From a virus, in IMG/VR virus record IMGVR_UViG_3300024346_000085, positions 1 to 53,903 of that record: a DNA stretch of 53,903 nt; one strand, given 5' to 3'. Of this stretch, positions 1,105 to 24,500 are shown one piece after another; positions within the stretch are counted from its first letter, which is position 1, and every line of letters begins with the position of its first letter. A program made the position numbers and the translations under genes. The notes under the pieces were generated by a model. It saw nothing but the letters and a program-made list of their open reading frames with translations, searched no databases and was not told the DNA's origin.

Positions 1105-4100
1105 CTATATCCTATCATTACTAGATGTCATAAACCTACTGATGACTGCTATGTTTTCTGCCGTACCTTTAATCTCTTCTCCTACTGACTCAAAGTATGA
1201 GTTTTCTTTAAATCCATTTATACCACCTAGGTATGGCATACCTTTTAATTGTAAGGGGTATATTCTTACTGGCTGTCTAGTTGATTCTATTTCCTCTAGC
1301 TTTGCAGTAAACAATCCTATTACAAGTCCTATGGCCCAACCAATAGGGCCTGCCATTCTTGCTAAACCTATTCCTAGTCTAGCAGCTGTGGTAGCAGTAT
1401 TTATAGCGGTAACACCTAGTAGTGCAACTCTGCTTGTACCAAAGGTTGCGGTTAATGCACCAGTAGCTTTTGTAGTTAAACTTGCAGCAGCAGCACCTCC
1501 CCTTAATGCAAGGTCTGCAGCCTTAAATACTCCGTTTGTTAGAAACTTTCTCATCTTATCACTCTTAGAAAGTAGAGAATATGCAGTACTCATTGTCACT
1601 GCTGTAAGACCTGCAGTAGTAGCTGTTGATAAAGCTGCCCCCACCGTATTCTGATAGTTTGTATCTACAGTACCTGGGCCGAACTCTTTACCTAAAATGT
1701 CATTAGATATATTTAGCATTAGCATAGACCTTAAGTATGTTGGGTCTGATTGGAATGATACTTCTGTTCTAACCTTTATCTCATCAACGGCCCTACCTGC
1801 TGCTATGAATAATGTACTAAATAACTTAGAGTAATCAAAATGAGCAGACTCACAATATAGGCCAGGAGTTATTTTAGTAACATATCCACCGTTAAGAGAG
1901 AACTCGTGTACACATTCTCTTATCTTAACTATACCTCTTAAAGATCTATACTCGTCATACAGACCAGCATAGTCTCCAGCTTTAATATTTGGATTACCTA
2001 TTACACATATCGTACCATCATACATCTTCTCTGCTTCTCTTCTTAGTCCTACTGATCCATACTTGTATGCCATATACTTACCATGTATACCAAGCATTGA
2101 AAACTCTCCTCGCCTATGAGCTGAAGGTTTTAGATTATCATCTATCTTCATTTCATAATAGTCGAAGTCTCCATCTTCTATTTTACTTTGATCACCATAA
2201 TATTGAACATTGAGTACTGTATTAAAATTGTCTGTTACTCTTAGGTTGTTTTCAATTATGTTATGGTCTGATGAGAATATATGAAAGTCACAAACTGGCT
2301 TAAATCTTTTACTTCTTAACTTTTTATAAAGTGTATTTTTATTCTGTGGACCAAATATATTTCTTAAGGTAGATGACTCAGCCATTATCCCATTGGCTAA
2401 ATCCCTATAGATATATAGCTGCTCTTTAATTCCAAAGAAGTATGAATGTCTATCTCCATATAGTACTGGCTTTGATAGTGTACCTGGATGTCTGTACTCC
2501 ATCTGCTTAAGCATATTCCATGGGGTACTTCTATATATAGGGAAATCGTAGGCTGCTTGTCTTCCTCCAAATATGTCGAATACTCCTGTTATGTTTGATT
2601 TAAATGTGTCTAACTTTAATGACTCACTAAATATGTTTGAGAACAGTCTTGTCTTAGCGCTATATGCAAACAGCCCAAATGGACTAATTGAACCTAGTGA
2701 TCTAGCTTCTGGGTCTGGGCCAGCCTGAAAAGGTAGATGCCATTTCATCGTACCGAAATGCTCTATTTCACTTGAGTATAATGCACTTGCTATAATTGAG
2801 TCAGTGTCTGCACTCATAAAAAAGTTATCATCGGATGGATCATCACCATGTTCATATGCTATTAACTCTCTACCAAAACCTTCAGCTTCAACTGTTAGCG
2901 TAGCCTCTCCACCTACCTGAGTTATTACACCATTAAAGATGGTCTCAAGCTCATTTGGATTGTTACCATAACCTGCCTTAACATGTAGTCTATTCCCAGG
3001 TCTTATTCTTATCTCGTTAACTGGGAACCTATTCTCACCAGTAGTGTTACTCAGTTCTGGATTCTTATTATCTTTATCTGCATTAAATGCAACATGATCA
3101 TCGGTATATACTGATCCAGGGTTGGCTATACTCATCTGTAGAACATCTACTGGATTATCATCAGAGTTTGTTCCAACTCTCAGTTCAGATATTCCCTTAA
3201 TCTCATAGTATGTATGCTTTCTTAATGATAAGGAATTTTTTAATTCTGTCTCATCTCCATCAACAAGAAAAACCTTCATTGCTGGGAATGCAAGATTTAA
3301 TCCATGCTCATATGAGTAAGCCATTCTCTTTGAATGAAATAAATTTAAGTCCTTGTCTCCGAATGGATCTACCTCTTCTTCTGTCTCCGACTTAAATACG
3401 TCTTTAAATGTATTACCTTCTTGCTCATCTATCTCAACACGTCCTGACATAAACATTGAAGCGCTCAGCTTTGATTTACTCATGTCAGAGTTATTAAGAT
3501 CGGGTGTTACATTCTTAAGGCTAAGCCCGACCTCTTCTCCGCCATTGCTAGCAGTTTTCTGAATGGCTTTACCTATGTCCTCTATTGTAAAGTCAATAGT
3601 ATCTATTTGATCTTTCATTAGGCTGGCGTTCATGTATCGCTCTTGTCTTATAAAAAAGAATGGAGGTATGTCTCTTGGGTCCTCAAACCCATACTCCTTA
3701 AGTGCTCCAGCATTAACTCCTAATCTATTGCCTATATACAGGTCATCAATAGCCTCACCATTAAAGTCTTCTACTATATTATTGTAGTTATTTTGTATTA
3801 GATCTACATACTTAACTGCTTGTGAACAGAACTTATTGCCGGCGTCAGCCATTCTCAGTATCTTATAGAACACTTGCTCCAAGGACCTATCTATCTTAAG
3901 TAAGTCATCACCTCGAAATCTACCAGTTGGATTAAGTCTTTCATCTAGTAGTCTAGTAGAGTTCCTAAAGTCTAATGGGTCTATCTGAGACATTGATCTC
4001 TGGAATGCATCTATTCTACTGCTTCTATCACGAGTGGTCCTTGCCCCTCTTCTTGTTTGTACTGTTGGGAACCTACTGTCGAATTCTGTCTTGGCCATTT

Positions 4101-5577
4101 CTTTTTCTTTACGGACAAGCTGTTGATTTAGATCTAGTAGAACATTGTATAACTGTTCAGCTTCTGAGTCGTAAATAAAGTCTCCTACTGCAGTGATACC
4201 AAATGTAGTTACTGCAAGAAAAGTATCTGCCTTCTCTTGTGCGGTTAATGATTTGTACCATTTTGTCTTTATAAACTCATCAGTAATGCTTTTAATAACC
4301 CGTATCATTATTGATGCTTGTATATCAACTTCTTTAGTTCCAGCGTTAGTGTACTTACTTCTATCCATAAGCTTTCTTACGTCTGATTCTTTTAATGAGT
4401 ATGCATATACATCCTTACCTTGATCGTATGCTGATGCCTGTATTGATTCTGAGTCTACTGCAAAGCCAAATGAAGGAAGTATAGATGTCAGTAAGCAGTC
4501 TACCTTTAATACATTATATGCATCGTATGCTCTGTTCTGCATATAGTTAACATCTATTTTAGATGTTGCATACTTCATAAATGTCACTGGACTTGTTGTG
4601 TCTGAATCCTTTTGATATGAACCAGTAGAATCAAGGCAGAAGTTTACCTGATATCTAGATGGACCTTTACCCATGTATTGTAATACCGGTAAGCTCCAAC
4701 CAGTTAATCTATGTACTGCAAAGTTATTAGACTTACTTACACTTATAACTTCTACTACTCTATTCGTTTCATTTAGATTCACCTTATTATTATCATTAAC
4801 TAAGGAGTTCCACCTAACCCATATGCTCATCTTATCCGAAGGGGTCTCTTTACTACCTTCAGCTATATTAGTGATACCACCAGGTGAAGTTACTATAATT
4901 TCTTCGAAGTCTGAATCTTCTGGAGGTTTTTCTGCTAGGATATCCGGATATCTTATGGCGAAGAATGAATTAGGCTTTTCACTTGAACCGTATTCATTAA
5001 CCTTAGAGAGTCTTTCTCTGATTTCTGGACCAAAATAAGATGCGAACATTTTAGATTGGAAAGGTGTCGATACACTTACTGGCACATACTCGATCTCTTC
5101 TTTAGCGCCACCGGTTAGAGTTTTACTTCTCTTCTTTCTCTCAGACACATCATAAAAACCAAACCCAGCGCAGAATGGAATGTAATTAAAATGTATTAGA
5201 TTAAGGTTAACTATTACCACGCCTTCTCTATTTGTTGTCTGGGTGAATGAATATTCCTGTATGCCAAATATCTGAAAACCATTAGTTGCCTTATAGCTAT
5301 TACCTATATAGGTCGACAGTCTATCTGATTCAATGAATGCAAATGGATACATATCAACCTGTGTTGCTAGGGTGACTAATCTTTCTACTTCAGTTGAATC
5401 TGATAGATCGAATGACAATGATATGTTATAAGAAGTTCTTGGGAATATACTTTTAGATGTGTATGTTGCATCATCTCTTATAAATTGTGCAGTCTTCAGG
5501 TTCCTATGTTGGATGACACTTATGTCATCTGGATTAACCTTTAGTTTTATATTGTTGATAATGAACTCTTCACTCAT
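1105..5577 (-). CDS. Giant baseplate hub protein (gp27/gpD-like core with extra N- and C-terminal regions)
   Basis: This 1490-residue protein is much longer than a normal baseplate hub (about 350-400 residues). Residues about 850-905 hold the classic hub signature: NEIRIRPGNRLHVKAGYG, then FNGVITQVGG, then LTVEAEGFGREL, as in gpD/gp27 late-control proteins. Around residues 1210-1265 there is a second hub-like stretch (AGDYAGLY, RGIVKIRECVHEF, GGYVTKITPGLY). The N-terminal 150 residues resemble phage tail/baseplate domains that fold as beta barrels (SYNISLSFDLSD and following). The C-terminus, about 1309-1425, is Ala/Gly/Thr-rich and ends in a membrane-like segment (GPIGWAIGLVIGLF), unusual for a hub. 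The start ATG shares its A with the upstream stop (TAATG), with AGGG ahead. It should sit at the tail tip, joining tube to spike. Confidence 0.75.
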   Translation of the reverse strand: MSEEFIINNIKLKVNPDDISVIQHRNLKTAQFIRDDATYTSKSIFPRTSYNISLSFDLSDSTEVERLVTLATQVDMYPFAFIESDRLSTYIGNSYKATNGFQIFGIQEYSFTQTTNREGVVIVNLNLIHFNYIPFCAGFGFYDVSERKKRSKTLTGGAKEEIEYVPVSVSTPFQSKMFASYFGPEIRERLSKVNEYGSSEKPNSFFAIRYPDILAEKPPEDSDFEEIIVTSPGGITNIAEGSKETPSDKMSIWVRWNSLVNDNNKVNLNETNRVVEVISVSKSNNFAVHRLTGWSLPVLQYMGKGPSRYQVNFCLDSTGSYQKDSDTTSPVTFMKYATSKIDVNYMQNRAYDAYNVLKVDCLLTSILPSFGFAVDSESIQASAYDQGKDVYAYSLKESDVRKLMDRSKYTNAGTKEVDIQASIMIRVIKSITDEFIKTKWYKSLTAQEKADTFLAVTTFGITAVGDFIYDSEAEQLYNVLLDLNQQLVRKEKEMAKTEFDSRFPTVQTRRGARTTRDRSSRIDAFQRSMSQIDPLDFRNSTRLLDERLNPTGRFRGDDLLKIDRSLEQVFYKILRMADAGNKFCSQAVKYVDLIQNNYNNIVEDFNGEAIDDLYIGNRLGVNAGALKEYGFEDPRDIPPFFFIRQERYMNASLMKDQIDTIDFTIEDIGKAIQKTASNGGEEVGLSLKNVTPDLNNSDMSKSKLSASMFMSGRVEIDEQEGNTFKDVFKSETEEEVDPFGDKDLNLFHSKRMAYSYEHGLNLAFPAMKVFLVDGDETELKNSLSLRKHTYYEIKGISELRVGTNSDDNPVDVLQMSIANPGSVYTDDHVAFNADKDNKNPELSNTTGENRFPVNEIRIRPGNRLHVKAGYGNNPNELETIFNGVITQVGGEATLTVEAEGFGRELIAYEHGDDPSDDNFFMSADTDSIIASALYSSEIEHFGTMKWHLPFQAGPDPEARSLGSISPFGLFAYSAKTRLFSNIFSESLKLDTFKSNITGVFDIFGGRQAAYDFPIYRSTPWNMLKQMEYRHPGTLSKPVLYGDRHSYFFGIKEQLYIYRDLANGIMAESSTLRNIFGPQNKNTLYKKLRSKRFKPVCDFHIFSSDHNIIENNLRVTDNFNTVLNVQYYGDQSKIEDGDFDYYEMKIDDNLKPSAHRRGEFSMLGIHGKYMAYKYGSVGLRREAEKMYDGTICVIGNPNIKAGDYAGLYDEYRSLRGIVKIRECVHEFSLNGGYVTKITPGLYCESAHFDYSKLFSTLFIAAGRAVDEIKVRTEVSFQSDPTYLRSMLMLNISNDILGKEFGPGTVDTNYQNTVGAALSTATTAGLTAVTMSTAYSLLSKSDKMRKFLTNGVFKAADLALRGGAAAASLTTKATGALTATFGTSRVALLGVTAINTATTAARLGIGLARMAGPIGWAIGLVIGLFTAKLEEIESTRQPVRIYPLQLKGMPYLGGINGFKENSYFESVGEEIKGTAENIAVISRFMTSSNDRI

Positions 5578-8500
5578 TAAAGTATCCCTGACCTATCCGT
5601 TATATTTATTTGTGCATTAGTAACCATATCACCATAGAGAACTCTATTTAGATTATTTCTCTGGACATTTTCTGCACTTGACTTAACAGAGGCTACAGCG
5701 TTGTAGTTGTCACCTTCTGTTTTATACTTCCTAGTATAAGCCTTTCTATCTCTTAGTGGCTCTAGTGGCCTTGGGCCACCACCAGTTGTTGGCTGTGTTG
5801 ATGAATGTTGTTCTGGAGCTCTAGTCCCAGAGAGCATAGCTATGGCTCCTAGTCCTAATGCGGCTGGCAATAACTTACTCTTATTCTTAGATGCAAAATC
5901 AACTATCCCCGACTTAACCTCATTATATACAGTTTTACTCTTATGGGCTAGGTTTTCCATAGCATCTTCAGATTCGATGGTTTCCGATAATGGACCAACT
6001 CCACCACCTTCCATTGTTGCAGTCTTTATTGCATCAACCATCTTCCTTATACCAGGTCTATCTTTGTCATAAACCTCTCCAGATATATCCATTAAAGACC
6101 AATTAGTTGATAGTTGCTTCTTGGTAGAGCTATTTGCATATGAGTTAATTAAATCTTCTCTCATTTGAGTATACTTACTAATAAGTTTATTATCACCAGA
6201 ACCCATTATCTTACCTCCAAGTGATTCATCTAAGAATCCCCTTAAGCTATTTCTGAATCCTTCATCTCCTCCATCTTTAGCTAGCCACTTATTTTGAGCT
6301 TCTAGTAATCCCTCGATGACTCCGTTTGGTTTCTCAAGAAACTTTAGTGTGTCTCTATGTTTAGACTTAAGCATATTTTCTGACAACGAGTGAGCTAGCT
6401 CTCTTGCCTGTATCTTTCTTTCTTCACTAAGACTGGAGTTGTTTATGGCCTCCTGAAAGTCTACTGATATTCCTGTGGCTAAAGGTGCTATTGGTTTTCT
6501 ATATCTACCCTTTAAGCCAGCGGCAGTATTATAGGCCCTAAGTTCATCTGGTGACTTTCCAACCATTGATACAGCCTTCTTCTCTGATCCTTTAGGACTA
6601 AGCTCTTTTACTACATCACTTATCTCCGATAGGGCCCTTACGACTCTTGAATTATTAGCCTTTAGTCTAGCCATTTTTTCTGGACTCATACCCTTTATAG
6701 GTAGAACTCTTATTGGGTCACCATCAAAATCCATAGCTGCATTTATTGACATGAATGCTTTTTTTTCATTTGCCATGTTTGCAAAATGTATTGAATCTTT
6801 ACCACCCCTAATTGAATCGTCAATTAACATCTCAGATGCAATTGATGTACCTGGACCCTGTACTGGCTCTCTTGATGTTTGGTTCATAAACGGTAAGCCA
6901 TTGGCAAGCATAATTTTACTTATACCTTTTACTCCTTTCTTGTTAACATCTTCAATAGTAAAATCTTGGCCTTCTATCATACCTGCATCCTTAAGAAAAT
7001 TTAATGCATTATTCCTACTCATAAAGTGTGCTGAGTTTGCATTACCTCCAACCAGATCTACATATCTCTGTGCCATACCACCTGCTGGTTTAGCCCATTG
7101 TATTTTAGATCCTATCGCTTCTAGTTTAGTTGCTTTCTTCGCAAGCCTAGGTCCAATCTTTTGATAGGTCTTAGATAAGTCTTCGGCAGCCTTATTGTAT
7201 TGCTCCCTTAACGGTCTTACTAGATCTTCATGTTTACCAGATGCATCTCTTAGACTTAAGTCAGCTACCATTAGCGCAGCACGCTTCTTGTCTAGAGTCT
7301 TAACAACATCTTCTCCACCTATATTTAAGGTACCAGCATAACCAGTATCTGCTAATGCAATAGGTATAGACTTCATTCCTAATATTTCTTCTGATAGATT
7401 ATATGTGGCGTGTTGCTTTCCTGGTTGTAATTTTGCCCCAGCCTTCTCTAGTATGCCAGCTCTAAGACTAGTATCTTTATTTAATATATCTGATAAAGAA
7501 TTTGGTGACTTTAGTTTATTAGGATCTATGCTTCCTGATTCTGTAGAGTCAATCAGCATCTGGACTTCCATTACTGCTGCCTGATTTACCTTACCCATGC
7601 TCCTGATATCTTCTTTACTTAATCCATCCATCATAAGCTTTGATTGTTCAAGCCAAGATATGGAACCAGTATTGCCTGCACCACTTATTGCTGGACCAAC
7701 ATTGGCTGTAACTGTAGTATTGGAGAATACATTCTTATCTTTATATGCTTCAGATATTATATTCTTAAGTGTAGGCATATTTATTTGTGCACCAGGAGAG
7801 CTCATAGCACCCTTTATAGCCTCTAGTTGAGCTAACCTATCTACTTGTCCAGTTCTAGTTAAGTGCTCACCAGCGGTCTGCCAGACGTCTGCATTACCTT
7901 TATTATCAGTTACTGCCATCATAAGTCTAGCTATGTTAGCTTTCTCATTTCTACTATTAGATGCCATAAATTCTTTAACGTAATTGTCTTGACCTATGCC
8001 ACCATATTTCTTTGCAAAATCATTGTCATTATATCTACCTGCAAGTATTTCTTGTATGTCTCCTAAGCCAGAATCTTCTGCACGAGATATCATAAATGAC
8101 TTACCTACAAGGTCATACTTTTTCATGTAGCTATCGTATCCCTTCTCTAGATGCTTATCTAGATCATCAAATAGCATGCTCTTTCCTAAGAAAGAAACCT
8201 TGCTGCCATCCTTATTTAGTCTTAACTTACCTTCTGACTCAAGTGCTGACATAATCGCTATCTTGCTAAATGTTCTCTCATCTACAACTGTGCCACCTGA
8301 CTTGGATGCTGTGCCGAATACCTTAACGATATCATTTTCTCCTGGCATGTAGATTCCTTTACCAGACAACTCTATTCCTTCAGGTGTATTCTTAATGCTA
8401 TCTATGTATGCGAATGAATGCTGCTTACCAAGCTTGAGTGGAGCACCATCTCCATCATAACCATATATTCCCTGATCAAGTTTAAAGCCTTCACCACTAT

Positions 8501-10205
8501 CTATTAATTCCTTTATGCTAGCAAAGTCTAGTGTAGTATTAAACTTAGGTGCTTCTGCGGACCCTAGGTTTGGTATAACTGTCTTAATAGCTTCTGTGCC
8601 TGCAAGAGATGATGCATACTTTTCATTATATAAAGAATAACCATCACCAAGTGTTACATCAGATCCATATAGCATACTTGATATCTTTCCAATATCAGAA
8701 GATGCATCTATGCGATAACCCTGTACCGAACTATCTAATAGGTCTTTAGCCCCCTTCTGTCCCCTAGCTGCCTGTGCCTTTATGTATTCAGACTTCATTA
8801 TATTCTCACCGAAGTCACCATCGTCTAATGGTAGTTGTCCTCTAAAGTTTACTCTAGATGCACCGGCCTCTTCTGTAGGGAATGCACCTATACTCCAGTT
8901 ACCTGCTGCTTCTGGAGAAATGACTTGTGTTACTGAGTTTATTGACATACGTTCATATGCATCATACTTTGCATCCTGAGCTAGCTTACCAACTATCTTA
9001 GATGCCTCTGATGCTTTAGAAGTGCCCTCGCCTACTGTTGTTAGTTTTCTAAATATCAACTCATTGTCACTATTAAAATCAAGTGCCATACCTAATTCAA
9101 TTGTGCTACTTTTTATCCTACCTAGTGCACTTGACTTATCTCCAGTACTTAATGCATCCTCACCAACATATTCTGTAAACTTATCTAGCATACTCTTAGT
9201 TTGTTTTAATGATGTTATATCTTTTCTACCTTGATACATCAGTATTTCTTCTGGATCAGATCCTCTTAATACATCTTCATGAGTCACCTTCTTTCCATTC
9301 ATTTCTCTTCCATCTAAATATAGTCTACCCATAGCATTAAATTGCTTAGACACAACCTTAGTGTTTCCACTATATGAGTATCTTAATCCATCCTCACTAT
9401 ATCCAGTTAGGGGATATCTTACACGATCACTACCATCAGATGCTGTCAATCCATACTGATCAAGAGTTAGATCATGGTGCCCCATCGCACCAACTAGAAT
9501 CCTAGCTTTCTCTTCTGCTCTTTCTTTTGTATGCCCTAGTATCGTTGAGTAATGATTAGATATAATGTCTAGCTTATTTCTCTCAGACCTACCAGCGGGA
9601 ATATTAATAGGTGACATCCTTTGAGATGGGGAACCTATACTTGAAAGGTCTTGTTCACCTACAATCTTCTGTGAAAAGCCAGACGCTTGAGATATGCTTC
9701 TTAGCTGCTCTTCAGTTAATGTACCTGACTTAACCATGTCTCTAATATTCATTGCATTTATTTCAGAACCAACACTATACTTACCATAAATAGTAGACAC
9801 GTACTCATCAGGGTCTCCTAGGCCAGCACCTACAAATAGATTATGATTAAGTATTTCCGTTAATGAATTTGCTCTATCTGTATATTCAATACCAGCATAG
9901 CCCTTCTTGAAGCTATCCGATGCCCTTTTTCTTAATCCTTCTATTTTAGATAATCTGTTATCCAGATTTTCCATAGTCTTATTCATTAAGTCTGAATAGC
10001 TATCTGTAGCATCTACCTTATACTTTAGAGAGGTACTCTTATTCTTAAGATTAAACTTAGGTAGGTTGTCATACACCGAATAGTAGCCTGCTGCGCCACC
10101 TATTGCAGCACCTGCCATATCTGTTCCATAGCTATCATCGCCTGTCTGAGAATAGGCTCCTATGCTTGCACCTATTCCTCCACCTATTAATTTTGGATTA
10201 ATCAT
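5577..10205 (-). CDS. Giant virion protein with RNA polymerase beta-prime-like DFDGD motif; candidate virion RNA polymerase
   Basis: This 1542-residue protein has no full-length family I recognise. It starts one base after the upstream stop with a GAGAAG ribosome site. The N-terminus (residues 4-45) is a Gly/Ala-rich glycine-zipper-like segment and the C-terminus has a short hydrophobic stretch (about 1442-1458). Residues 1155-1169 read NAAMDFDGDPIRVLP, close to the NADFDGDxMxVHxP signature of RNA polymerase beta-prime, whose three Asp bind catalytic Mg. Upstream, about 1098-1115 (IMLANGLPFMNQTSREPV) is reminiscent of the beta-prime LLNRAPTLHR region, and downstream SPEKMARLKANN resembles the EAQ.EA..LM...N segment. 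YonO and crAss-like phage virion polymerases share this motif. Lying between tail chaperone-position and hub genes, it should be a virion protein, perhaps ejected. A tape-measure or other structural role remains possible. Confidence 0.55.
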   Translation of the reverse strand: MINPKLIGGGIGASIGAYSQTGDDSYGTDMAGAAIGGAAGYYSVYDNLPKFNLKNKSTSLKYKVDATDSYSDLMNKTMENLDNRLSKIEGLRKRASDSFKKGYAGIEYTDRANSLTEILNHNLFVGAGLGDPDEYVSTIYGKYSVGSEINAMNIRDMVKSGTLTEEQLRSISQASGFSQKIVGEQDLSSIGSPSQRMSPINIPAGRSERNKLDIISNHYSTILGHTKERAEEKARILVGAMGHHDLTLDQYGLTASDGSDRVRYPLTGYSEDGLRYSYSGNTKVVSKQFNAMGRLYLDGREMNGKKVTHEDVLRGSDPEEILMYQGRKDITSLKQTKSMLDKFTEYVGEDALSTGDKSSALGRIKSSTIELGMALDFNSDNELIFRKLTTVGEGTSKASEASKIVGKLAQDAKYDAYERMSINSVTQVISPEAAGNWSIGAFPTEEAGASRVNFRGQLPLDDGDFGENIMKSEYIKAQAARGQKGAKDLLDSSVQGYRIDASSDIGKISSMLYGSDVTLGDGYSLYNEKYASSLAGTEAIKTVIPNLGSAEAPKFNTTLDFASIKELIDSGEGFKLDQGIYGYDGDGAPLKLGKQHSFAYIDSIKNTPEGIELSGKGIYMPGENDIVKVFGTASKSGGTVVDERTFSKIAIMSALESEGKLRLNKDGSKVSFLGKSMLFDDLDKHLEKGYDSYMKKYDLVGKSFMISRAEDSGLGDIQEILAGRYNDNDFAKKYGGIGQDNYVKEFMASNSRNEKANIARLMMAVTDNKGNADVWQTAGEHLTRTGQVDRLAQLEAIKGAMSSPGAQINMPTLKNIISEAYKDKNVFSNTTVTANVGPAISGAGNTGSISWLEQSKLMMDGLSKEDIRSMGKVNQAAVMEVQMLIDSTESGSIDPNKLKSPNSLSDILNKDTSLRAGILEKAGAKLQPGKQHATYNLSEEILGMKSIPIALADTGYAGTLNIGGEDVVKTLDKKRAALMVADLSLRDASGKHEDLVRPLREQYNKAAEDLSKTYQKIGPRLAKKATKLEAIGSKIQWAKPAGGMAQRYVDLVGGNANSAHFMSRNNALNFLKDAGMIEGQDFTIEDVNKKGVKGISKIMLANGLPFMNQTSREPVQGPGTSIASEMLIDDSIRGGKDSIHFANMANEKKAFMSINAAMDFDGDPIRVLPIKGMSPEKMARLKANNSRVVRALSEISDVVKELSPKGSEKKAVSMVGKSPDELRAYNTAAGLKGRYRKPIAPLATGISVDFQEAINNSSLSEERKIQARELAHSLSENMLKSKHRDTLKFLEKPNGVIEGLLEAQNKWLAKDGGDEGFRNSLRGFLDESLGGKIMGSGDNKLISKYTQMREDLINSYANSSTKKQLSTNWSLMDISGEVYDKDRPGIRKMVDAIKTATMEGGGVGPLSETIESEDAMENLAHKSKTVYNEVKSGIVDFASKNKSKLLPAALGLGAIAMLSGTRAPEQHSSTQPTTGGGPRPLEPLRDRKAYTRKYKTEGDNYNAVASVKSSAENVQRNNLNRVLYGDMVTNAQINITDRSGIL
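6717..6731 (-). other. DFDGD motif codons (residues 1159-1163 of the 1542-residue protein)
   Basis: The codons GAT TTT GAT GGT GAC encode Asp1159-Phe-Asp-Gly-Asp1163. In cellular RNA polymerases and their one-chain phage relatives the three aspartates of this loop coordinate the catalytic magnesium. Here the preceding Asn-Ala and the following Val...Pro are also present, with two extra residues (Ala-Met) between Asn-Ala and the first Asp compared with the bacterial consensus. Confidence 0.85.
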
Positions 10206-10206
10206 A

Positions 10207-13200
10207 TTACTTCTCTACGTTTAAAGTTATTCCAGATTCTTGTCCCTGACGTATCTCTAAGTCTTTGATTTCGAACCCTTCTTCATATAGCATTTGTGCT
10301 ATGCTTTCCTTAAGATTATGCTTTTCTTTTAAAGCATCCTTTATATCTTTTATTTGAGAAACCACCTGTTCCTCTTGTAGTACTGCAATCATTCTAGATA
10401 ACCTTTCTTTGTCAGATTTCCAGAAGCCAAAATCATGTATGTCTTCATCACCTAAGGTTAGTGTTCTAAGCTTAATATCTTCTAAGTCTATCCTTGGGTC
10501 CCATCCAACAAAGTCTTCATCAGGCATACCTGTAACTTCAGATATAAACTCTTCTGCCTGCTTGTCTGCTATATGCTCCTTGAATGTTCCGTTCTTATTT
10601 GATGATCTATAATTATTATATTCATCTTGGTTCTCTTCTCTAAGTATATCATCTTCAAGTTGTGCTTGCTTCTTAAGTGCCTCATTAACATTCTCGCCTT
10701 TTGCGGATGCTCTTTCTGCCGTGTCTTTCCTGTTCCATATGGTTTGATATATTCCAGAGATATCATCTGGTAGCATCTTAAGTATCTCACCTCTATCTTC
10801 TGTATCAGCATTTACAAATGCTGCAAAGTAGGGTTTCTCATTTGTTGGTAGCGCAATATAAGATCTGAGTAATTCTCTCTCAGAGTCTATATTAGACGCC
10901 AATGACCCATGAACTGTTTTTTCATATGCAGACTTATGTGTTCTTGCTTGCTTGAAGTCTCCAGCATTAGTAGCTTCATTATATAGCCTTCTCTGCTTAA
11001 CATATTCAAGCTTATCAAAGTACTGTTCAACGCCACGCTTTTCGATAATATCTTCAGGAACATATGAATCATCAAACTTAGATATAGTAGTATCAATAGC
11101 AGGCTCTATGAAGTGCTCGATAGGTTTATTCCACAGTGCTAGGTCAGATCCATATAGCTGAGTTTTCTCATAGTCCTCTATGGCTGTTCTCTGATGTAAA
11201 AGTTTACCTGCTGGTCTGAAGAACGTTAGGTACTCTGCTGGTGTTTCAGCATTATGAGTTACTCCTTCCCAGTATGAATTAAGCGCCTTACCTACTGCAG
11301 AAACATTCTTTAACTGTTCATCAGTCTTATACTCATGGAACTTCTTAGTCTGACCTCTTTCTGTCTCCTGATCTCTGATAACAGAAAGCATTCCTGTTTC
11401 ATGCTTAGTTAATGTTCCTGCCTCTTCTCTGCTGTCTATTCTATTCTTTACATCGTAGTAGGCATCTGAACCTAGTGCAACATCGGAAAGAATCTTTAGC
11501 TTGAATATGTCTGGATAATCTTCTGGATTAAATCCCTCTAGCTCTTTATGTATTGCCTGATATCCTGCGCCAGGTAATCTGAATACACCATTCTCTAATT
11601 TTGTATATGGATCACCAGTACTAAAGTTAAGATAGTAGTTACTTTCATCTCCAGGTAGCCATGATGGCATGCTATTCTTTAATGGATTAACTCTATCATA
11701 TACACTACCAGATGATGTTGGTAAGAATCTACGCTGTGCCTCTGTCATGCCAAACATACCACCCAAGTTCATATCCTTGAATGCTCTAGCACTATTTGTA
11801 GCCTCACCTGATCTAGATAGTTGTGGAGCAAGTATCCCATCCATATCCATATCATCTTGCATAAGGCCTAAGGCCCAACCCTTAAGACCCATGAAGTCTT
11901 TCAGTGCACCGAATGACCAGCTACCAGCTTCTTCTAGTGGATTGTATTGTGCAGATGGTGGAGGCAGCATCATGCCGTCAGCTATGAGTGAGGCATCTCT
12001 CTCACTTACTGGTACAGTAAAGTTATAAGTCTTTGTTTCTATTGCATTATTTATTAGGTCAGCAGTACCTGTAGCCATACCTCTAAGTTCTTTTGGTGCT
12101 CCTGACCCTAGTGGACTTGTTACTTGAAGAGTACCAGGCTCCTTGTCAGATAGGTACTGTTCTAGTTTTGGATTTATGATGTCTGGCTTAATGATAGAAC
12201 CGATAGTCTTCTCGAATGTCTTGCCGAAGAACGATGCGAATGATACATCCATTCCCCATACAGCATAAGGCCTATCTTCTTCATGCATCTTTTCGAACTT
12301 ATATGGATCTCTTAGATAATCGAGTGGGTGTAAAAAAGGATTCATAGAGTCTTTAGTTTCCTTATCCCCATATAGAGACTTAGTCTCACCCTCAGACATC
12401 ATTCTGGCATACCAGCCCTTAGTGAAATACTTAGTCTTCTGACCATCGTATTCAGTACCACCAGAGAACCACCATCTGTTTTGCTTAATGGCCACATCTT
12501 TTTCACCAGAGTATTCGGCCCTCAGGTCTTCAGAGCTCTCTCCGATTAATGCTCCAGGTAGAAATGGTATGGCTGCTATGGCCCCAGCAGTTGCTCCAAT
12601 CATTGCCCATCTCTTATTCCTAGTCATACCCTTCTTCATGAAAGGTAATACCTTCTCGGTGTTCTGTGCTAGCTCAGAGTATTCATGTCCCTTAATAGTA
12701 GTCTGGCCAAGCCTAGTAAAGTACGAAGCCATACCACCATGCATTGCTCCAGCTAACGGTAGTCCTGCTAACGTTAGTAGACTAGTTGATCCTGGTGCTA
12801 GATACTCTTGTTCCTCCTTATAGTCCTGGAAGTTATCAGATATCATTTCTGCGTACCCAATATGTGCATTAACTACTGATGTAGATATGCCAGGTATTAT
12901 CCCCTTTGAGTAAGGACTATCTTCTGGTGCAAATGTAGTTGCGAATGAATCTGCGGCTAAGTAAGCTCCTCCAATCATGAGTGACTTCTTTGCTATATTC
13001 TTAGACATCAGCATTAATGATCTTGGTATAGACTGTGTATAGTCTCCACCTGTACCCATGTTAAATGTTACTGATTCACCTAGCCATCTTGCTATTTTAG
13101 AGTCTGGCAAGTATTCCATTAAGTCTGCAAAAGGTTTATCAAATACCTTGGCACCTCTCTCAAATGCTAATCTTGAATACGATCTAAAACCATAGTCGGC

Positions 13201-13977
13201 AGCCAGCTTATGTGAACTATCTGAACCTACTAAAGTTATTTGATCATGACCTTTTCTTTTAAGCACATTAAAATAGCCATCTTCGGTAATACCTTTTATG
13301 TTCGCATATTTTTCTATTACCTTATTTCTATACGAACCTTTCCCATCAACATTGTTTCCTCCATTGATATCCATATGAGTAGGTACTATTCTTGCATGCT
13401 TAAGTAACATTTTTTCGTTACCAAGTTCATCAAGTTCAAATAGTGACCCTTCTTTCACTCTTAATCCAAATCTCCTGTGTCCTGCCGTAAGAGACTTCTT
13501 CTCACTTATTAATAGCTTATCAAGATACTCTTCCATGGCTTCTACTTGGTGGCCAGAGAATGTATAGGATGCCTCCTTACCTAGTGCGAATGGTGATATT
13601 AAGTGTGATAGATTAAATGTTCTAAGTATCTTAAATGGAGATAGCTCCTCCATGTTCCTAACGGCGTTTAATATAACGTCTGAGAATGACTTGTTTCCAC
13701 CCTTTAATTGGGAGTATGAATCTAGGTTTGACTTAGAACCAGAAATGCCTCGTATAGAGGCATCTAGGATTCCGTTGTTTAGGATATTTATTTTGCTTAG
13801 AGCATTAGGATTATCTTTGAATAGCTTGCCTGCAGTTAATACTGCTGCACTTGCTGCACCAAGTAATAGTAGTTTCTCAGTTGCCTCTTCTCTCTTCTTT
13901 CTCTTTGTTTCTTCTGTTACATCGCTTGCGCTTACAATCTTTATTATTGGCTGGCTGTATTGAGAGTTATTCTCCAT
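10207..13977 (-). CDS. Giant tail-region virion protein with multiple hydrophobic segments (tape-measure/ejected-protein candidate)
   Basis: A 1256-residue protein whose start overlaps the upstream gene by 11 bases, with AAGG just ahead of the ATG. Four hydrophobic segments are visible: about 36-49 (LLLLGAASAAVLTA), 326-341, 392-412 and 455-478 (GATAGAIAAIPFLPGALIG). Just after them comes an aromatic-rich block (RWWFSGGTEYDGQKTKYF, GWYARMMS, DPYKFEKMHEEDRPYAV), and later FRLPGAGYQAIHKEL and KLKILSDVALGS. From memory, similar aromatic and RLPGxGY...ILxDVA blocks recur in large uncharacterised proteins of other phages; I could not check this. The C-terminal 250 residues are charged and helical. 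Position after the tube and chaperone-position genes and before the hub is where a tape measure belongs, and the hydrophobic segments suit a protein delivered into or across the cell envelope. Which of this and the next giant gene is the tape measure is unresolved. Confidence 0.6.
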   Translation of the reverse strand: MENNSQYSQPIIKIVSASDVTEETKRKKREEATEKLLLLGAASAAVLTAGKLFKDNPNALSKINILNNGILDASIRGISGSKSNLDSYSQLKGGNKSFSDVILNAVRNMEELSPFKILRTFNLSHLISPFALGKEASYTFSGHQVEAMEEYLDKLLISEKKSLTAGHRRFGLRVKEGSLFELDELGNEKMLLKHARIVPTHMDINGGNNVDGKGSYRNKVIEKYANIKGITEDGYFNVLKRKGHDQITLVGSDSSHKLAADYGFRSYSRLAFERGAKVFDKPFADLMEYLPDSKIARWLGESVTFNMGTGGDYTQSIPRSLMLMSKNIAKKSLMIGGAYLAADSFATTFAPEDSPYSKGIIPGISTSVVNAHIGYAEMISDNFQDYKEEQEYLAPGSTSLLTLAGLPLAGAMHGGMASYFTRLGQTTIKGHEYSELAQNTEKVLPFMKKGMTRNKRWAMIGATAGAIAAIPFLPGALIGESSEDLRAEYSGEKDVAIKQNRWWFSGGTEYDGQKTKYFTKGWYARMMSEGETKSLYGDKETKDSMNPFLHPLDYLRDPYKFEKMHEEDRPYAVWGMDVSFASFFGKTFEKTIGSIIKPDIINPKLEQYLSDKEPGTLQVTSPLGSGAPKELRGMATGTADLINNAIETKTYNFTVPVSERDASLIADGMMLPPPSAQYNPLEEAGSWSFGALKDFMGLKGWALGLMQDDMDMDGILAPQLSRSGEATNSARAFKDMNLGGMFGMTEAQRRFLPTSSGSVYDRVNPLKNSMPSWLPGDESNYYLNFSTGDPYTKLENGVFRLPGAGYQAIHKELEGFNPEDYPDIFKLKILSDVALGSDAYYDVKNRIDSREEAGTLTKHETGMLSVIRDQETERGQTKKFHEYKTDEQLKNVSAVGKALNSYWEGVTHNAETPAEYLTFFRPAGKLLHQRTAIEDYEKTQLYGSDLALWNKPIEHFIEPAIDTTISKFDDSYVPEDIIEKRGVEQYFDKLEYVKQRRLYNEATNAGDFKQARTHKSAYEKTVHGSLASNIDSERELLRSYIALPTNEKPYFAAFVNADTEDRGEILKMLPDDISGIYQTIWNRKDTAERASAKGENVNEALKKQAQLEDDILREENQDEYNNYRSSNKNGTFKEHIADKQAEEFISEVTGMPDEDFVGWDPRIDLEDIKLRTLTLGDEDIHDFGFWKSDKERLSRMIAVLQEEQVVSQIKDIKDALKEKHNLKESIAQMLYEEGFEIKDLEIRQGQESGITLNVEK

Positions 13978-14485
13978 TTTCCTTTTCTCCAGATATTAGT
14001 GCTGCCTCTGCTGGGAACGTAGACTTAAATAAGGCAAACCTTTTTAGTAACTTGTTTACAGGATAGCTTCTTACCTCATCATATGGGGTATTAAAATATC
14101 TAGATACTATTGCTTGTATACTATCTAATCCAGATAGCTCATTCTCATATTGTGAAACTAATGCTTCAGTGGAATATATATGCTTTAGACTTTCTGCTTG
14201 GACTACTCCTGATATAGTAGAGACTATGCCAGCCTCTATGTCATCTATATCAATAGGCTCATCTATACCTAGAATCTTATCAAAAACTAAATCGAATACG
14301 TCCTCTTCTATAAGGGCATCAGAAAGGCCACTCTTGGTGTTGAACCTTAGAAGTCTTAATACTTCATCATAAGTTAGTAGTCTAATTACAAAGACTAGAT
14401 TCGAATACTGAAGCCCACCAATACTTATATCTACATCAGGAAAAGATATAGACATCTTGTCCTCGCCTAGACTTAGTATGTTCAT
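13967..14485 (-). CDS. Hypothetical protein at tail assembly chaperone position (second of pair)
   Basis: A 172-residue acidic protein, not recognised by sequence. It starts two bases after the stop of the preceding gene, and that ATG has no good ribosome site. The internal ATG at 14455 (Met11) is preceded by GGCGAGG at good spacing, so the true start may be there, giving 162 residues. The body is alpha-helical (YDEVLRLLRFN, DDIEAGIVSTISGVV) and ends in a charged tail overlapping the next gene by 11 bases. Two small helical proteins between tail tube and tape-measure-position genes usually are tail assembly chaperones. They are often joined by programmed frameshifting, but I see no X-XXY-YYZ slippery site at this junction. 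Confidence 0.5.
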   Translation of the reverse strand: MNILSLGEDKMSISFPDVDISIGGLQYSNLVFVIRLLTYDEVLRLLRFNTKSGLSDALIEEDVFDLVFDKILGIDEPIDIDDIEAGIVSTISGVVQAESLKHIYSTEALVSQYENELSGLDSIQAIVSRYFNTPYDEVRSYPVNKLLKRFALFKSTFPAEAALISGEKENGE

Positions 14486-16835: not shown

Positions 16836-18836
16836 TTAAATATCGTATGCTAGTTTAACTGAAGTATTAACTTCTCTTAGCTCAAATGCAGGAACGATTG
16901 TAATTGGAATACGTAGCTTACCTCTTCCATTTTCTGCAGGTTCTACTAGAACTGTTGCAGAATACTTAACAACTGAGCCAGAGGCAACAGCATCTTGGAA
17001 GATAGCTTCTACCGCTGTTTGCGCAGCCGCCACAGTTACTTGATTAAGACCTTTACCAATAAATGGTTCTAATCTTGTTCTTATGTTTCTAATGACTGTT
17101 GATACTATGATTGCAGTTGAAACGTAATCGTAATCAGATGCATCAGAAGTAGCTAACTCACCAGACACAACAACTGTACCAACTGTTTTGTTCTGGAATG
17201 AAACATATCCAGCACCTGCAAGCTCGTCAAGTTTAGTCTTCTTAATCGTGTAAGGTAGTGATACTCTAGGTATTAATCTATTAGTAGTTGATTCACCAGC
17301 TATAATAGTAGAAAGTAATCCAGCATACAGACCTGCACCATTAGCTGTTCTAGCATTTAAGCCAAATGAGCCTAGGTTTGGAGTGTTTACAGATCCCATT
17401 ACCACTGATAGGTATTTACCAATATCTATTACTGTACCATTAGAATCAGTTTGTGGATTTCCATCTGGGAAACCTGAATCAGTTTCAAAGAAACCAGCTG
17501 CTCTTGTTATGCTACCAGACATGAACTTATTACCAAGTAAACCAGAACCATTAGCTATAATGTTTCCTGAGAAATCTTCTTGAGGTAATGTTCCTATCCA
17601 CTTAGCTACAGCAGAAGTTGTATTGGCGATAGCCTGAGAGGTTCCGATTACACCAAGAACAAATCTTTCATTCTGTGTGATAGCATGGCACCATGAACCT
17701 AATTGATGTACGAAGTTAACTTCATTAAATCTCTTAGATACTATTGGCTGTCCATTTGAATCTAGTGCAGCAAGATTAATATCAGGAGTTAGGCCTGAAG
17801 CCCCATCATCATACTGAATCTTTTCTGTTCCCCACTCATAAGTTATTTCACCTAGAGCTTCTGTTTTTAATAGGTAGTCAAGCTTATCAGCTGCTACGCT
17901 ACCATCTGCAATATTTGGAGCATCTAGTATTGCTTTACCAACTACTATTTCAGTAGCGATAGTTGTTTCTAGATCTGCGTATGCTTTATCTAGTAACTCA
18001 TAATACTTTTTCCAATTACCTGTAATGTTGTTCTCGCCAGCAGAATATGTGGCACCTGCTACTGTAGCTGGTGTTGAATATTCAACTACTATAACTCCTA
18101 GGTTAGCTGGAGCTGCGTCAAATACAATTTGATCTGCGCCTGCAGTACCTGTTCCAGCACTGATTGTGTAGGTTGCATCTACAGCATCTACTTTAGCAGA
18201 AGAAACTACTGCACCAGTATTACCTGGTAGATCCCAAGTTGTCTCAACTCCATCACCTGTTGTATTAAGAGTACCATCAGCTACTAGGCTAGTGATTACG
18301 TCTTCAAATTTAACAGGGATTGTTGGAGTGCCTGCCCTTAGAGCAAATGCGTCTTTATCAAATCCAACGATGTTAAATAGACCTAAGTCTACTATTGCAC
18401 CAGTTGCATTAGAATAAACAATTGTATCGCCTTGAAAGATTATGATACATGACTTAAGCGCATTAGAAGGCTCTGGTCCAATGTATACATTAAACTTGCC
18501 ACCTGCCGCTACTGTTTCTTCTCTTGTTGCTAGTAAAGTATCAGCACCGAATAGATCAACTATCTCTGCTGCTTCACCACCAATTCTGTAAAGAACTATA
18601 TTCTGAGCTCCGCCTAGCTTAACTTCTGAAAGCTTGCTAATTAACGGAGAGTCTGAACCATAGATGGCACTCGCTTCATTTGAGTCAGTCACTAAGTATT
18701 GAAAATTAGAAGGACCAGAGTATGCTGTGTCTACTATTAATACGATTGGACCAGTGATTGCTGAGTCAATCTGAAGATTTCCATCAAGCAACTCAAGGTT
18801 TACACCAGGTAGGTTCTTATATTTTATTGCTGCCAT
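16836..18836 (-). CDS. Contractile tail sheath protein
   Basis: A 666-residue protein with the start expected of phage sheath proteins: an N-terminal YKNLPGVNLELLDG segment, then GPIVLIVDTAYSGPSNFQYLV and a GGAQNIVLYRIGG strand, typical of the conserved sheath N-terminal domain. The C-terminal third (about 530-666) contains the conserved helix-rich domain: LIPRVSLPYTIKKTKLDELA, SDASDYDYVSTAIIVSTVIRNIRTRLEPFIGKG, then a final beta region AENGRGKLRIPITIVPAFEL. Length is close to T4 gp18 (659 residues), with a variable middle rich in Thr/Ala/Gly. It forms the contractile outer tail. It begins with an AGGAG ribosome site and is followed by a hairpin and the tube gene. Confidence 0.92.
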   Translation of the reverse strand: MAAIKYKNLPGVNLELLDGNLQIDSAITGPIVLIVDTAYSGPSNFQYLVTDSNEASAIYGSDSPLISKLSEVKLGGAQNIVLYRIGGEAAEIVDLFGADTLLATREETVAAGGKFNVYIGPEPSNALKSCIIIFQGDTIVYSNATGAIVDLGLFNIVGFDKDAFALRAGTPTIPVKFEDVITSLVADGTLNTTGDGVETTWDLPGNTGAVVSSAKVDAVDATYTISAGTGTAGADQIVFDAAPANLGVIVVEYSTPATVAGATYSAGENNITGNWKKYYELLDKAYADLETTIATEIVVGKAILDAPNIADGSVAADKLDYLLKTEALGEITYEWGTEKIQYDDGASGLTPDINLAALDSNGQPIVSKRFNEVNFVHQLGSWCHAITQNERFVLGVIGTSQAIANTTSAVAKWIGTLPQEDFSGNIIANGSGLLGNKFMSGSITRAAGFFETDSGFPDGNPQTDSNGTVIDIGKYLSVVMGSVNTPNLGSFGLNARTANGAGLYAGLLSTIIAGESTTNRLIPRVSLPYTIKKTKLDELAGAGYVSFQNKTVGTVVVSGELATSDASDYDYVSTAIIVSTVIRNIRTRLEPFIGKGLNQVTVAAAQTAVEAIFQDAVASGSVVKYSATVLVEPAENGRGKLRIPITIVPAFELREVNTSVKLAYDI

Positions 18837-21549: not shown

Positions 21550-24500
21550 TTATGCGTCTCCTAAATTTACTGTTGCTATAAATGTTCCGCCGCTTCCTGC
21601 AAACGTTACCTTAGTATTATTAACCTGATTTGTACCGCTTACATTATGATCAAATATTGAGAATATGGATCCAACTGATTGCCACGATGTACCTAAGTTT
21701 CTAGATATGCTTATATTTTTACTGTCATCATCATAAATTATTATAGCAGTCTTTTCTATCTCACACATGCTATTAACTATTTGATCCACTTCATAGTCGA
21801 ATGAGAATGTATACCTCTTGTTTATATCTGTACTTGCAGAGTAGCTCTTCTTCTCTGGTAGTAGCTGAGGTACTGAGCATATAGACTCAAAATCATCAAG
21901 AGAGAGTTTCTTGCCGAAGCAACATAGGTTTGGAACTTTAATCTTAGCTCTCATTATGTTGCCTGACATAACTAGTAGTTCTGGATCGTACCCAACTTCT
22001 TCAAGCTCTTGTCTTGGAAGCATAGATCTATATCTTACTCCTAGTGAACCATAGTCTTGATTAAGTATTGCGAATGATAATGATGAGTCTAAGTCAATAC
22101 CGTCTACATTTAAGGTTAGCGTTCTAACATCAAATACAGCACCTGGATCTAATTCTTCTGGTAGCTTATATCCATAGTTAGTTATGCTAGCTACCATGAT
22201 CTCTTGGCTATGTCCGAAGTCTGGACCAAATGCATCTATTGTATATGTAGTGTCATTACTATTTGAATTTATGTTTCCAGAAGTACTTGATGCAGCTACT
22301 AGTGTGTAGTCTCCAGCAGGTAAGTATATTACTATTCTAACCATGTTAAGTATATCGTCATAGTTAGTACCCATTTTTATAACTCTATTGGTATTAGTAT
22401 CTATGATATATAGTTCTGGGTTCTTTAGGGACTCAGTTGTATAGTCGAAAACATAGTAGCCTTCATTAAATATTTGTATATTATGTGCATCTCTAGTTAA
22501 GCTATATGGTCTCTTACCTGGAAGATCCTCTAGCGCAGAAGCAGCTATTGTTATTCCCTCGCCATAATTTATATCAGAAGCCAATTGACTCCATCCATTA
22601 ACGCCATCGTAGTATTTAACTAGATCCTTAGAGAATTCCATTTCAGAACTCGTAGGTACATATGTTGGTATAGATATATCGTAATCATATGTTACACTTA
22701 TTGGTCCTGTATCTATGTCTTGTCCAAAGTTTGTTAATAACTCATAGCCCAGTATTCTGTTACCATTGTCTAAAAACAATCTATATGCAGACTTCTCAAT
22801 AGATGTCATGTCCATCTCTATGGATAATGAGTTACCAGAGAATGTAAATACAGTATCTAGCTCGTAAGGAATCTGTCTAGTATTGTACTTCAACTTAAAT
22901 GTCTTAATGTAAGTGTTGGCATAGGCTATGTCGTATAGGAAGAAATATTCTTTTGTCCTAACCTTACCTTTCTCAGACTTAAATCTTAGATTAAAATCTT
23001 TTACCTGCCTTACATCGTTCACCAAACCTATCCTACTTCTAAGCTTAAAGTTTCTAGATTTCAATCCAACCAGGGAAAGCTTATATGTATTCTTCTCAAG
23101 AGAATATACAACAGGTGAGTATTCTTTATTAGTCTTATATCTAAGATTAAATGTTCTAATAGATGCATCTAACTTAGACTTATATCTCAAGAAGAATGTT
23201 GATGTCTTAATCTGAACTAATGTTGTTTTATAAGAGAACTCTACTGGTATGGTTGAGAACCCAAGATCGGCAGATATCATCTCTACTTCAAATGGTGATT
23301 CGGAGTTAACGAGTGTGTTTAGTGCCTCTAAGTTATATCTTAATTGGAAATGATATTCCACTGGTACTCCTTCTCTATATAGTAGGTATTGGAATTCGTA
23401 ATTTTGTTCTATATCTGATATATAATTTAATGTGTAATCAAATTGAAAATCATGTTCGACTAGTGTTATTCTACCAACATTATATGGTAGCGTAAACGTA
23501 TGTGTGTTTGGTGGTGCTAGTATTCTAGAGTTATAGTTATCTGTTATCTCTGACTGGGTTAATGTTTTAGAATATATTGCGAACTCATCCATTGTACCTT
23601 CGAAGAAGTTTGAGTACACAGATCCAACTGGCTCTGCTCCTATGGAAGCCTTCTTAATGTTCGGACTAGTTGAAAATGCTGAGCTATCTGTCCAAGATAT
23701 GTTTCCATTTATAGCTGCCCTACCAACCTCTGTTGAGTTAACGTATATGACTGCATCACCACCAGATTCCATTGTTACTACTAGATGATTGAAACCACCT
23801 ATGAATCCAGGTGAAGCTACAACTAGATCGTTAAAGCTGTTAGCACCTTCTCGCCCCCATCTGAATGATATGCTACTTGGACCAGCAAATAGCGCTATTC
23901 CTCTATAGTCCTCATTGGCACCTTGTGGTAAATATGAATATATATTTCCGTATACAATAGGAGCTATCCATACTTCTATGCTTTGGTTATTTGATTCAAA
24001 TTCAATGCCTGCAGGTATTTGGATTAGACCATCAACTCCATTAAATGCAGTTGATGCAAACTCTATGGATGTTAATCCCTCAGTAGTATTTACATGTAGG
24101 CCATCATAACCATTACCGGTACTATCTGCAGCAACTGACGAAACGCCGTCGTCCATCTTATAGTAAGCAGTTGGTAATTTAGACAGTACTCTGTAGCTGT
24201 ATGTCGGTAATATACCATAGTTATATAGGTCAAATATCTTAGAGGCATTTAGTTCGCTAGTAAATATGGCAACCTCATCCATAAGTCCATCATAATAACC
24301 TTGATAGTCATTAGCATATAGTGGTCCGCCTATGCATGCTGTTACTGTATCACTAGGTTGGAAGCTACCATTTGGAGTTAAAAAGTCTCTTGTACTATCA
24401 AGAGTACCGTTTATATATGTATATAGTGTGGCACTACTATGTTCTGCAACACACACTACATTGACCCATTCACCTACTGGGAGTGTGGCAACTGATGTTA

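Follow-up and report, generated by a model that had tools for sequence, protein, structure and literature searches.

Two-barrel (double-psi beta-barrel) RNA polymerases form a superfamily that includes the cellular beta and beta-prime subunits, QDE-1, YonO, the crAss phage protein gp66 and gp96 of phage P23-45. Those that are packaged in virions allow phage transcription to start without the host enzyme. YonO of SPbeta, QDE-1 and phi14:2 gp66 each carry both barrels and a DxDxD motif on one chain; gp66 is found in the virion of a phage with a short tail, and neither YonO nor QDE-1 is known to be carried in virions. The phiKZ-type jumbo-phage enzymes (vRNAP and nvRNAP) are also of the two-barrel type, and provide a virion polymerase in combination with a contractile tail, but are assembled from several subunits encoded by separate genes. 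The closest described system in terms of gene position is gp96 of Thermus phage P23-45, a biochemically proven one-chain virion RNA polymerase with a DFDGD motif that is fused to the tail tape (PMC10770324; PDB 8h2m, 8h2n). Its gene fills the tape-measure slot in the tail module, with the polymerase located at the N-terminus of a 5002-aa tape measure in a phage with a long non-contractile tail, and this tail-tape form has so far been known from a single group of Thermus phages, whose tails are non-contractile (PMC10770324).

The window considered here is the whole stretch of DNA analysed, an IMG/VR viral fragment of 53,903 bases with genes for the large terminase, capsid and tail. An open reading frame on its minus strand encodes a 1542-aa protein, hereafter the window protein, which like gp96 is a single chain encoded in the tape-measure slot. 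The surrounding tail module is arranged as follows.

1105..5577, minus strand: baseplate hub with a gp27-like domain, downstream neighbour (phrog_8809, E 4e-129; ME3 baseplate hub protein, E 5e-89)
5577..10205, minus strand: candidate one-chain two-barrel RNA polymerase, 1542 aa, in the tape-measure slot (open reading frame, seven slot homologues, Foldseek)
10207..13977, minus strand: orf145-like virion protein, 1256 aa, upstream neighbour (36% identity to ME3_35 over 92%)
13967..14485, minus strand: tail-chaperonin-position gene, orf144-like (synteny with ME3_33/34 and the 0305phi8-36 lineage, PMC2147016)
14488..14940, minus strand: tail-chaperonin-position gene, orf143-like (synteny; PHROG match of unknown function)
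16836..18836, minus strand: tail sheath (phrog_16991 tail sheath, E 2.9e-74)

The strength of the sheath match indicates that the tail is contractile. Beyond the sheath and tube genes the order runs through the two chaperonin-position genes, the orf145-like gene and the polymerase candidate to the baseplate hub, and the same order is found in the Acinetobacter jumbo myophage ME3. A first-pass annotation had placed the gene between tail chaperone-position genes and the hub, and this placement was confirmed in the window, in ME3, in Bacillus phage KLEB27-3 and in a set of phage-like plasmids, such that the chaperonin-to-hub slot is shared by the ME3-like phages and by Firmicute elements of three genera. 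Bacillus phage 0305phi8-36, which belongs to the same lineage, also shows this order; the protein in the corresponding slot (gp146, from orf146) was assigned as the tape measure on the basis of tail length, and orfs 143 and 144 are described as the only non-structure genes near it (PMC2147016), which points, indirectly, to a slot protein that is part of the virion. Which protein sets tail length in the window's lineage is not settled, and the orf145-like protein, which has hydrophobic segments at residues 35-53 and 460-478, is an alternative candidate for the real tape measure.

The orf145-like gene is present as two open frames in two IMG/VR contigs (L010:9998-13776 and L014:2674-6976), and as two genes with another ORF between them in KLEB27-3 (L003:9827-16980). 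The splits fall at roughly one place, around residues 650-800 of the window copy, and could reflect a recurrent frameshift, an inserted element or an assembly error. A DMDMD sequence at residue 709 of the window's orf145-like protein was also considered, and was discarded as it is not kept in ME3_35, KLEB27-3 or MTATph1.

Residues 1155-1169 of the window protein read NAAMDFDGDPIRVLP, with DFDGD at 1159-1163. The first-pass annotation had drawn attention to this stretch as a beta-prime-type catalytic signature, and both the motif and the flanking segments that it quoted were recovered in the translation. It had also cautioned that a short motif can arise by chance, which was assessed with 20,000 shuffles of the protein's own sequence. 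Any DxDxD appeared in 36% of shuffles and DxDGD in 4.4%, an R.P followed 40-50 residues on by D.D.D appeared in 0.7%, and DFDGD in only 0.055%. The caution thus holds for the bare triad and not for the full DFDGD. Since a bare DxDxD is so readily obtained, the motif alone is weak evidence and conservation must decide.

Homologues were therefore the material of most weight. A tblastn search of 50,697 phage records returned a single match, ME3_36, annotated as 'hypothetical protein' (E 3e-32, 25% identity). Six more (L005, L007, L009, L010, L014 and L015) came from IMG/VR scans in which the orf145-like neighbour and the window protein itself served as queries, and all of the homologues occupy the same slot. 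Scans of genome collections, and a plasmid search with the window protein as query, found no relative. In the resultant alignment (A7), which comprises the window protein and seven homologues with 19-28% identity to it, the triad reads DFDGD, DYDAD, DFDYD, DHDQD, DGDQD, DFDFD, DFDQD and DFDQD. Only the three aspartates, D1159, D1161 and D1163, are fixed, and these are invariant in all eight sequences; their loss in close homologues, which the first-pass annotation held would refute a polymerase, was not seen. The glycine of DFDGD is absent from all seven homologues, which counts against the polymerase reading. An R-E-P motif lies 43-47 residues upstream of the triad in every sequence. The conserved features of the window protein are listed below.

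10083..10190, minus strand: N-terminal glycine-zipper-like segment, residues 6-41 (sub-threshold Pfam Gly-zipper matches; conserved in homologues), possibly a membrane or tail-lumen element
6216..8798, minus strand: conserved core of the candidate polymerase, residues 470-1330 (conservation profile; the homologous fragment of L009 was the target of structural model 2)
8640..8645, minus strand: D521-G522, invariant 8/8, resembling the DG at the barrel-B entry of YonO (TDGCGM) and gp96 (LGDGALG); equivalence inferred
8301..8324, minus strand: K628 ... K635, both invariant 8/8, candidate barrel-B (beta-type) lysines; inferred
6864..6875, minus strand: SREP, residues 1111-1114, counterpart of the beta-prime NRAPT or R-x-P loop (R1112-E1113-P1114 invariant 8/8)
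6717..6731, minus strand: DFDGD, residues 1159-1163, putative Mg-binding triad of barrel A, beta-prime type (aspartates invariant 8/8; in register with the Firmicute slot family)
6588..6593, minus strand: K1205-G1206, invariant 8/8
6474..6500, minus strand: RKPIAPLAT, residues 1236-1244, after the triad in the place of the bridge-helix/trigger-loop region (R1236, K1237 and T1244 invariant 8/8; inferred)
6357..6380, minus strand: E1276 ... K1280 ... H1283 (ENMLKSKH), invariant 8/8
5826..5885, minus strand: C-terminal NK and weakly hydrophobic segment, residues 1441-1460 (N1441 and K1442 invariant; the segment exceeds the hydropathy threshold in L007 only)

Could the motif nonetheless be a chance occurrence in an unrelated helical tape-measure protein? 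A bare DxDxD would be expected by chance in roughly one in three proteins of similar length and composition, and the window protein has no family match. Conversely, the triad and the REP are present in all homologues, a profile links them to a second DxDGD family, and the 50 structural matches listed for the core of one homologue, described below, are all to RNA polymerases. Judged on sequence comparison, the retention of the triad in eight of eight proteins at such low identity is decisive and settles the motif as real. The chance reading, together with that of a purely helical tape measure, is rejected on the combined conservation and fold evidence, and the chance reading can be considered effectively refuted.

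Six-frame scans of three related phage genomes (approximately 213,000 residues in open frames of at least 100 aa) revealed R.P followed by D.D.D at a spacing of 30-50 residues only three times, in the slot ORFs of ME3 and KLEB27-3 and in a 141-codon ORF of ME3. Apart from the latter, and a KLEB27-3 ORF with an N-terminal DPDFD, the triad with an upstream R-x-P was found in no further long ORF of ME3 or KLEB27-3. These phages may therefore rely on the slot polymerase and the host's enzyme as their sole polymerases, although they could also have a second enzyme that lacks these motifs. A search with PF05183 (RNAi RdRP) gave no match in nine related records, and the positive control was equally silent, so that the negative is uninformative.

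Around the motif the window protein resembles gp96, with REPVQG...DFDGDPIRVLPIKG in the former corresponding to RNPVMG...DFDGDTLVVLPKGL in the latter, where RNPVMG is 38 aa before DFDGD. The resemblance does not extend further: hhalign of the family profile against the single gp96 sequence aligned 18-21 columns around the motif (E ~0.05) without wider homology, and against the single YonO and phi14:2 gp66 sequences gave no significant alignment. The proteins differ also in architecture, the window protein being associated with a contractile tail, much shorter at 1542 aa, composed mostly of the polymerase-like core, and with its triad at residue 1159. No match to the window protein was found in Pfam, PHROGs or PDB sequences, which counts against the polymerase reading, and neither it nor its homologues match a curated RNA polymerase family. 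The lack of a curated match is not disqualifying, however, since gp96, a proven polymerase, likewise has no Pfam RNA polymerase match.

A second family of slot proteins was identified in Firmicute elements. It comprises gp034 of KLEB27-3 (2434 aa, RYPTINQ...KADYDGDF), which is annotated 'structural protein', and relatives on four phage-like plasmids of 204-240 kb from Cytobacillus, B. halotolerans, B. licheniformis and Paenibacillus; none is annotated as a polymerase. RYP and DxDGD are invariant in all five members and are followed by GKxxIGxxSN-like blocks, of which the RKPIAPLAT segment of the window protein is the putative counterpart. The two families share the slot and align over approximately 235 columns, in register on R-x-P and the triad (profile-profile E 6e-5 to 2e-4), whereas the second family differs in its length (2288-2434 aa), in a strict DxDGD and in an extra N-terminal exonuclease-like region. 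When compared with all PDB sequences, its best match was the phiKZ RNA polymerase beta-prime protein PHIKZ055 (E 0.005), with RYPT...EADSDGDYL aligned to RNPT...NADFDGDQL; gp034 alone matched Pfam RNA_pol_Rpb1_2 over the same stretch, with an E of 0.015 that is below the cut-off. As far as alignments alone can establish, the second family is the bridge at the level of sequence between the window protein and cellular-type RNA polymerases.

The exonuclease-like N-terminus is a feature of the Firmicute-branch slot proteins (L003:17004-24308, L065:4863-11729, L067:7779-14702 and L004:12513-16442), with weak to moderate Pfam scores for RNase_H_2, DNA_pol_B_exo2 and RNase_T and matches to PolB exonuclease regions in the PDB. 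Its presence would place nuclease-like and polymerase-like domains in one tail-slot protein. The slot protein of Moorella phage MTATph1 (L004:12513-16442) has the exonuclease-like region and no DxDxD, and the next gene along carries a transposase annotation; this protein may have lost its polymerase part.

Structural models were predicted with AF2 for residues 210-1400 of the window protein (model 1, mean pLDDT 54.9) and for the homologous core of L009 (model 2, mean pLDDT 65.8, pTM 0.52). Values for 10-residue blocks were higher at the motif, at approximately 63-85 across most of the region in model 1 and 62-91 in model 2. Both cores are mixed alpha/beta with many strands, as opposed to the purely helical tape-measure fold that the first-pass annotation had named as a refutation. 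In model 1 DFDGD sits between a helix and a strand, after which comes a long helix, the arrangement known from beta-prime, and the same order of helix, DxDxD loop, strand and helix is predicted in model 2. The conserved RKxIAPxAT block also lies after the triad, and the identification of these elements with the bridge helix and trigger loop is an inference.

Foldseek comparison of model 1 with the PDB (350,542 chains) placed a plastid RNA polymerase first, with QDE-1 chains at most of the next ranks, these two accounting for most of the top 14 matches (E 0.026 and up). With model 2, all 50 of the matches listed were catalytic subunits of two-barrel RNA polymerases (best E 0.0066, probability up to 1.00), spanning the large subunits of Pol II, III and IV, ASFV, poxvirus, archaeal and plastid enzymes, bacterial beta-prime and QDE-1. 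QDE-1, a top structural match, is a single chain with both barrels, as is proposed for the window protein. The gp96 structures (8h2m, 8h2n) were absent from the 50 matches listed for model 2, and no E-value among the matches listed for either model reached 0.001 or below, which counts against the polymerase reading. Despite the weak E-values, a match list filled entirely by one functional class is not the behaviour expected of a wrong fold. Against viral predicted structures the sole strong match was ME3_36 itself. It should be borne in mind that AF2 may partly recall the motif. A double-psi barrel around the motif is accordingly no more than partly supported, by the nature of the matches and by models of moderate confidence. 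With respect to a second barrel with conserved lysines, K628 and K635 are invariant in all eight sequences and are candidates for the barrel-B active-site lysines; this role is inferred, their position relative to the triad not having been inspected, and there are no data on spatial proximity.

Taken with the invariant aspartates, the two-barrel Foldseek matches and the beta-prime-like order of elements lend support to the first-pass interpretation of the gene as a polymerase, with activity inferred. We consider it probable that the gene at 5577-10205 encodes a highly diverged one-chain two-barrel RNA polymerase, in a contractile-tailed phage of the ME3 / 0305phi8-36 type whose tape-measure slot it occupies, and that the protein travels in the tail and is ejected together with the DNA. 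The conserved motif, the synteny and the structural resemblance are observed; catalysis, virion location, ejection and early transcription are inferences. Barrel A would hold Mg2+ via D1159, D1161 and D1163, aided by the R1112-x-P1114 loop, with barrel B supplying basic residues, most likely K628 and K635, and the bridge helix and trigger region would correspond to the conserved stretch that follows the triad. Most likely, the protein would be assembled inside the tail tube and, upon sheath contraction, be ejected with or ahead of the DNA, to transcribe the first phage genes during their entry into the cell.

Whether polymerisation has been retained is a separate matter. The protein could feasibly be a tape-measure or tail-lumen protein that descends from a two-barrel polymerase and has lost activity, with the barrel kept for folding, DNA binding or tail packing. 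Its slot and synteny match those of the orf146 tape measure of 0305phi8-36 (PMC2147016), DFDGD is relaxed in the homologues (DHDQD, DFDYD, DFDFD and so forth), and the MTATph1 slot gene without DxDxD suggests that the domain is dispensable in the slot. Likewise, no promoter motif was found in ME3, where over-represented k-mers considered as phage promoters were mostly intragenic and none was convincing. Set against these points, the three aspartates, the R-x-P and two distant lysines are invariant in eight of eight sequences at approximately 20% identity, while the residues between the aspartates vary freely; retained metal chemistry would be expected to give such a pattern, and a relic would not. 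That only the putative metal-binding residues are kept within the triad motif argues for retained catalysis, by inference, and the aspartates and R-x-P are similarly kept in five of five proteins of the Firmicute family. Loss of activity is therefore regarded as unlikely.

Another reading is that of a non-virion, YonO-like polymerase that only happens to be encoded among tail genes and acts after its synthesis in the infected cell. Phage 0305phi8-36 offers a precedent in gp99, a separate RNAi-RdRP-like/YonO-like enzyme whose gene is not part of the structural module (PMC2147016, PMC7824862), and the presence of the window protein in virions has not been shown. However, the chaperonin-to-hub slot is conserved in three Firmicute genera and in ME3-like phages, the KLEB27-3 relative is annotated as structural, and the N-terminal glycine zipper, weakly hydrophobic C-terminal segment and conserved C-terminal tail of the window protein resemble features of tail proteins. 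The tail slot and the relative's annotation argue, inferentially, for presence in the virion and ejection, and the non-virion reading appears very improbable.

The first-pass annotation had regarded a one-chain, DFDGD-type polymerase in the tail of a contractile phage as new. The tail-position type is already known from P23-45 gp96 (PMC10770324), and what appears to be new is its occurrence in a contractile-tailed lineage. No description of a contractile phage with a one-chain polymerase in its tail slot was found in the literature consulted, which did not extend to the supplementary survey of PMC10770324, where some of the present proteins might be listed. If the polymerase reading is correct, the coupling of tape-measure slot and RNA polymerase would be a recurrent solution, present in a second, unrelated tail type and including an isolated, growable phage (ME3) as well as Bacillales phage-like plasmids. 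It would also account for an unannotated giant gene of this lineage, yield one-chain polymerases, very diverged and relaxed in their DxDxD, that are missed by standard family searches, and render the passage of a polymerase through a contractile tail a directly testable question. A broader suggestion, which we hold only tentatively and at slightly less than even likelihood, is that tail-carried one-chain RNA polymerases are an old and widespread trait of the 0305phi8-36 / ME3 contractile supergroup, in the tape-measure slot and in phages of both Gram-negative and Gram-positive hosts, and that in the Bacillales branch they are fused with an exonuclease-like domain in a tail protein of 2300-2400 aa, so that a single ejected protein would deliver both RNA synthesis and nuclease chemistry before the genome arrives.

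Two minor observations were made on the wider elements. The Bacillales 'plasmids' of 200-240 kb (NZ_CP065512, NZ_CP114067, NZ_CP035189 and NZ_CP048288) contain this lineage's tail module and probably represent phage-plasmids. In the window, two giant proteins (21550-28410 and 28469-31771) with at least ten Laminin_G_3 (concanavalin-like) domains are encoded between the tail and head genes, a position at which ME3 has nothing comparable.
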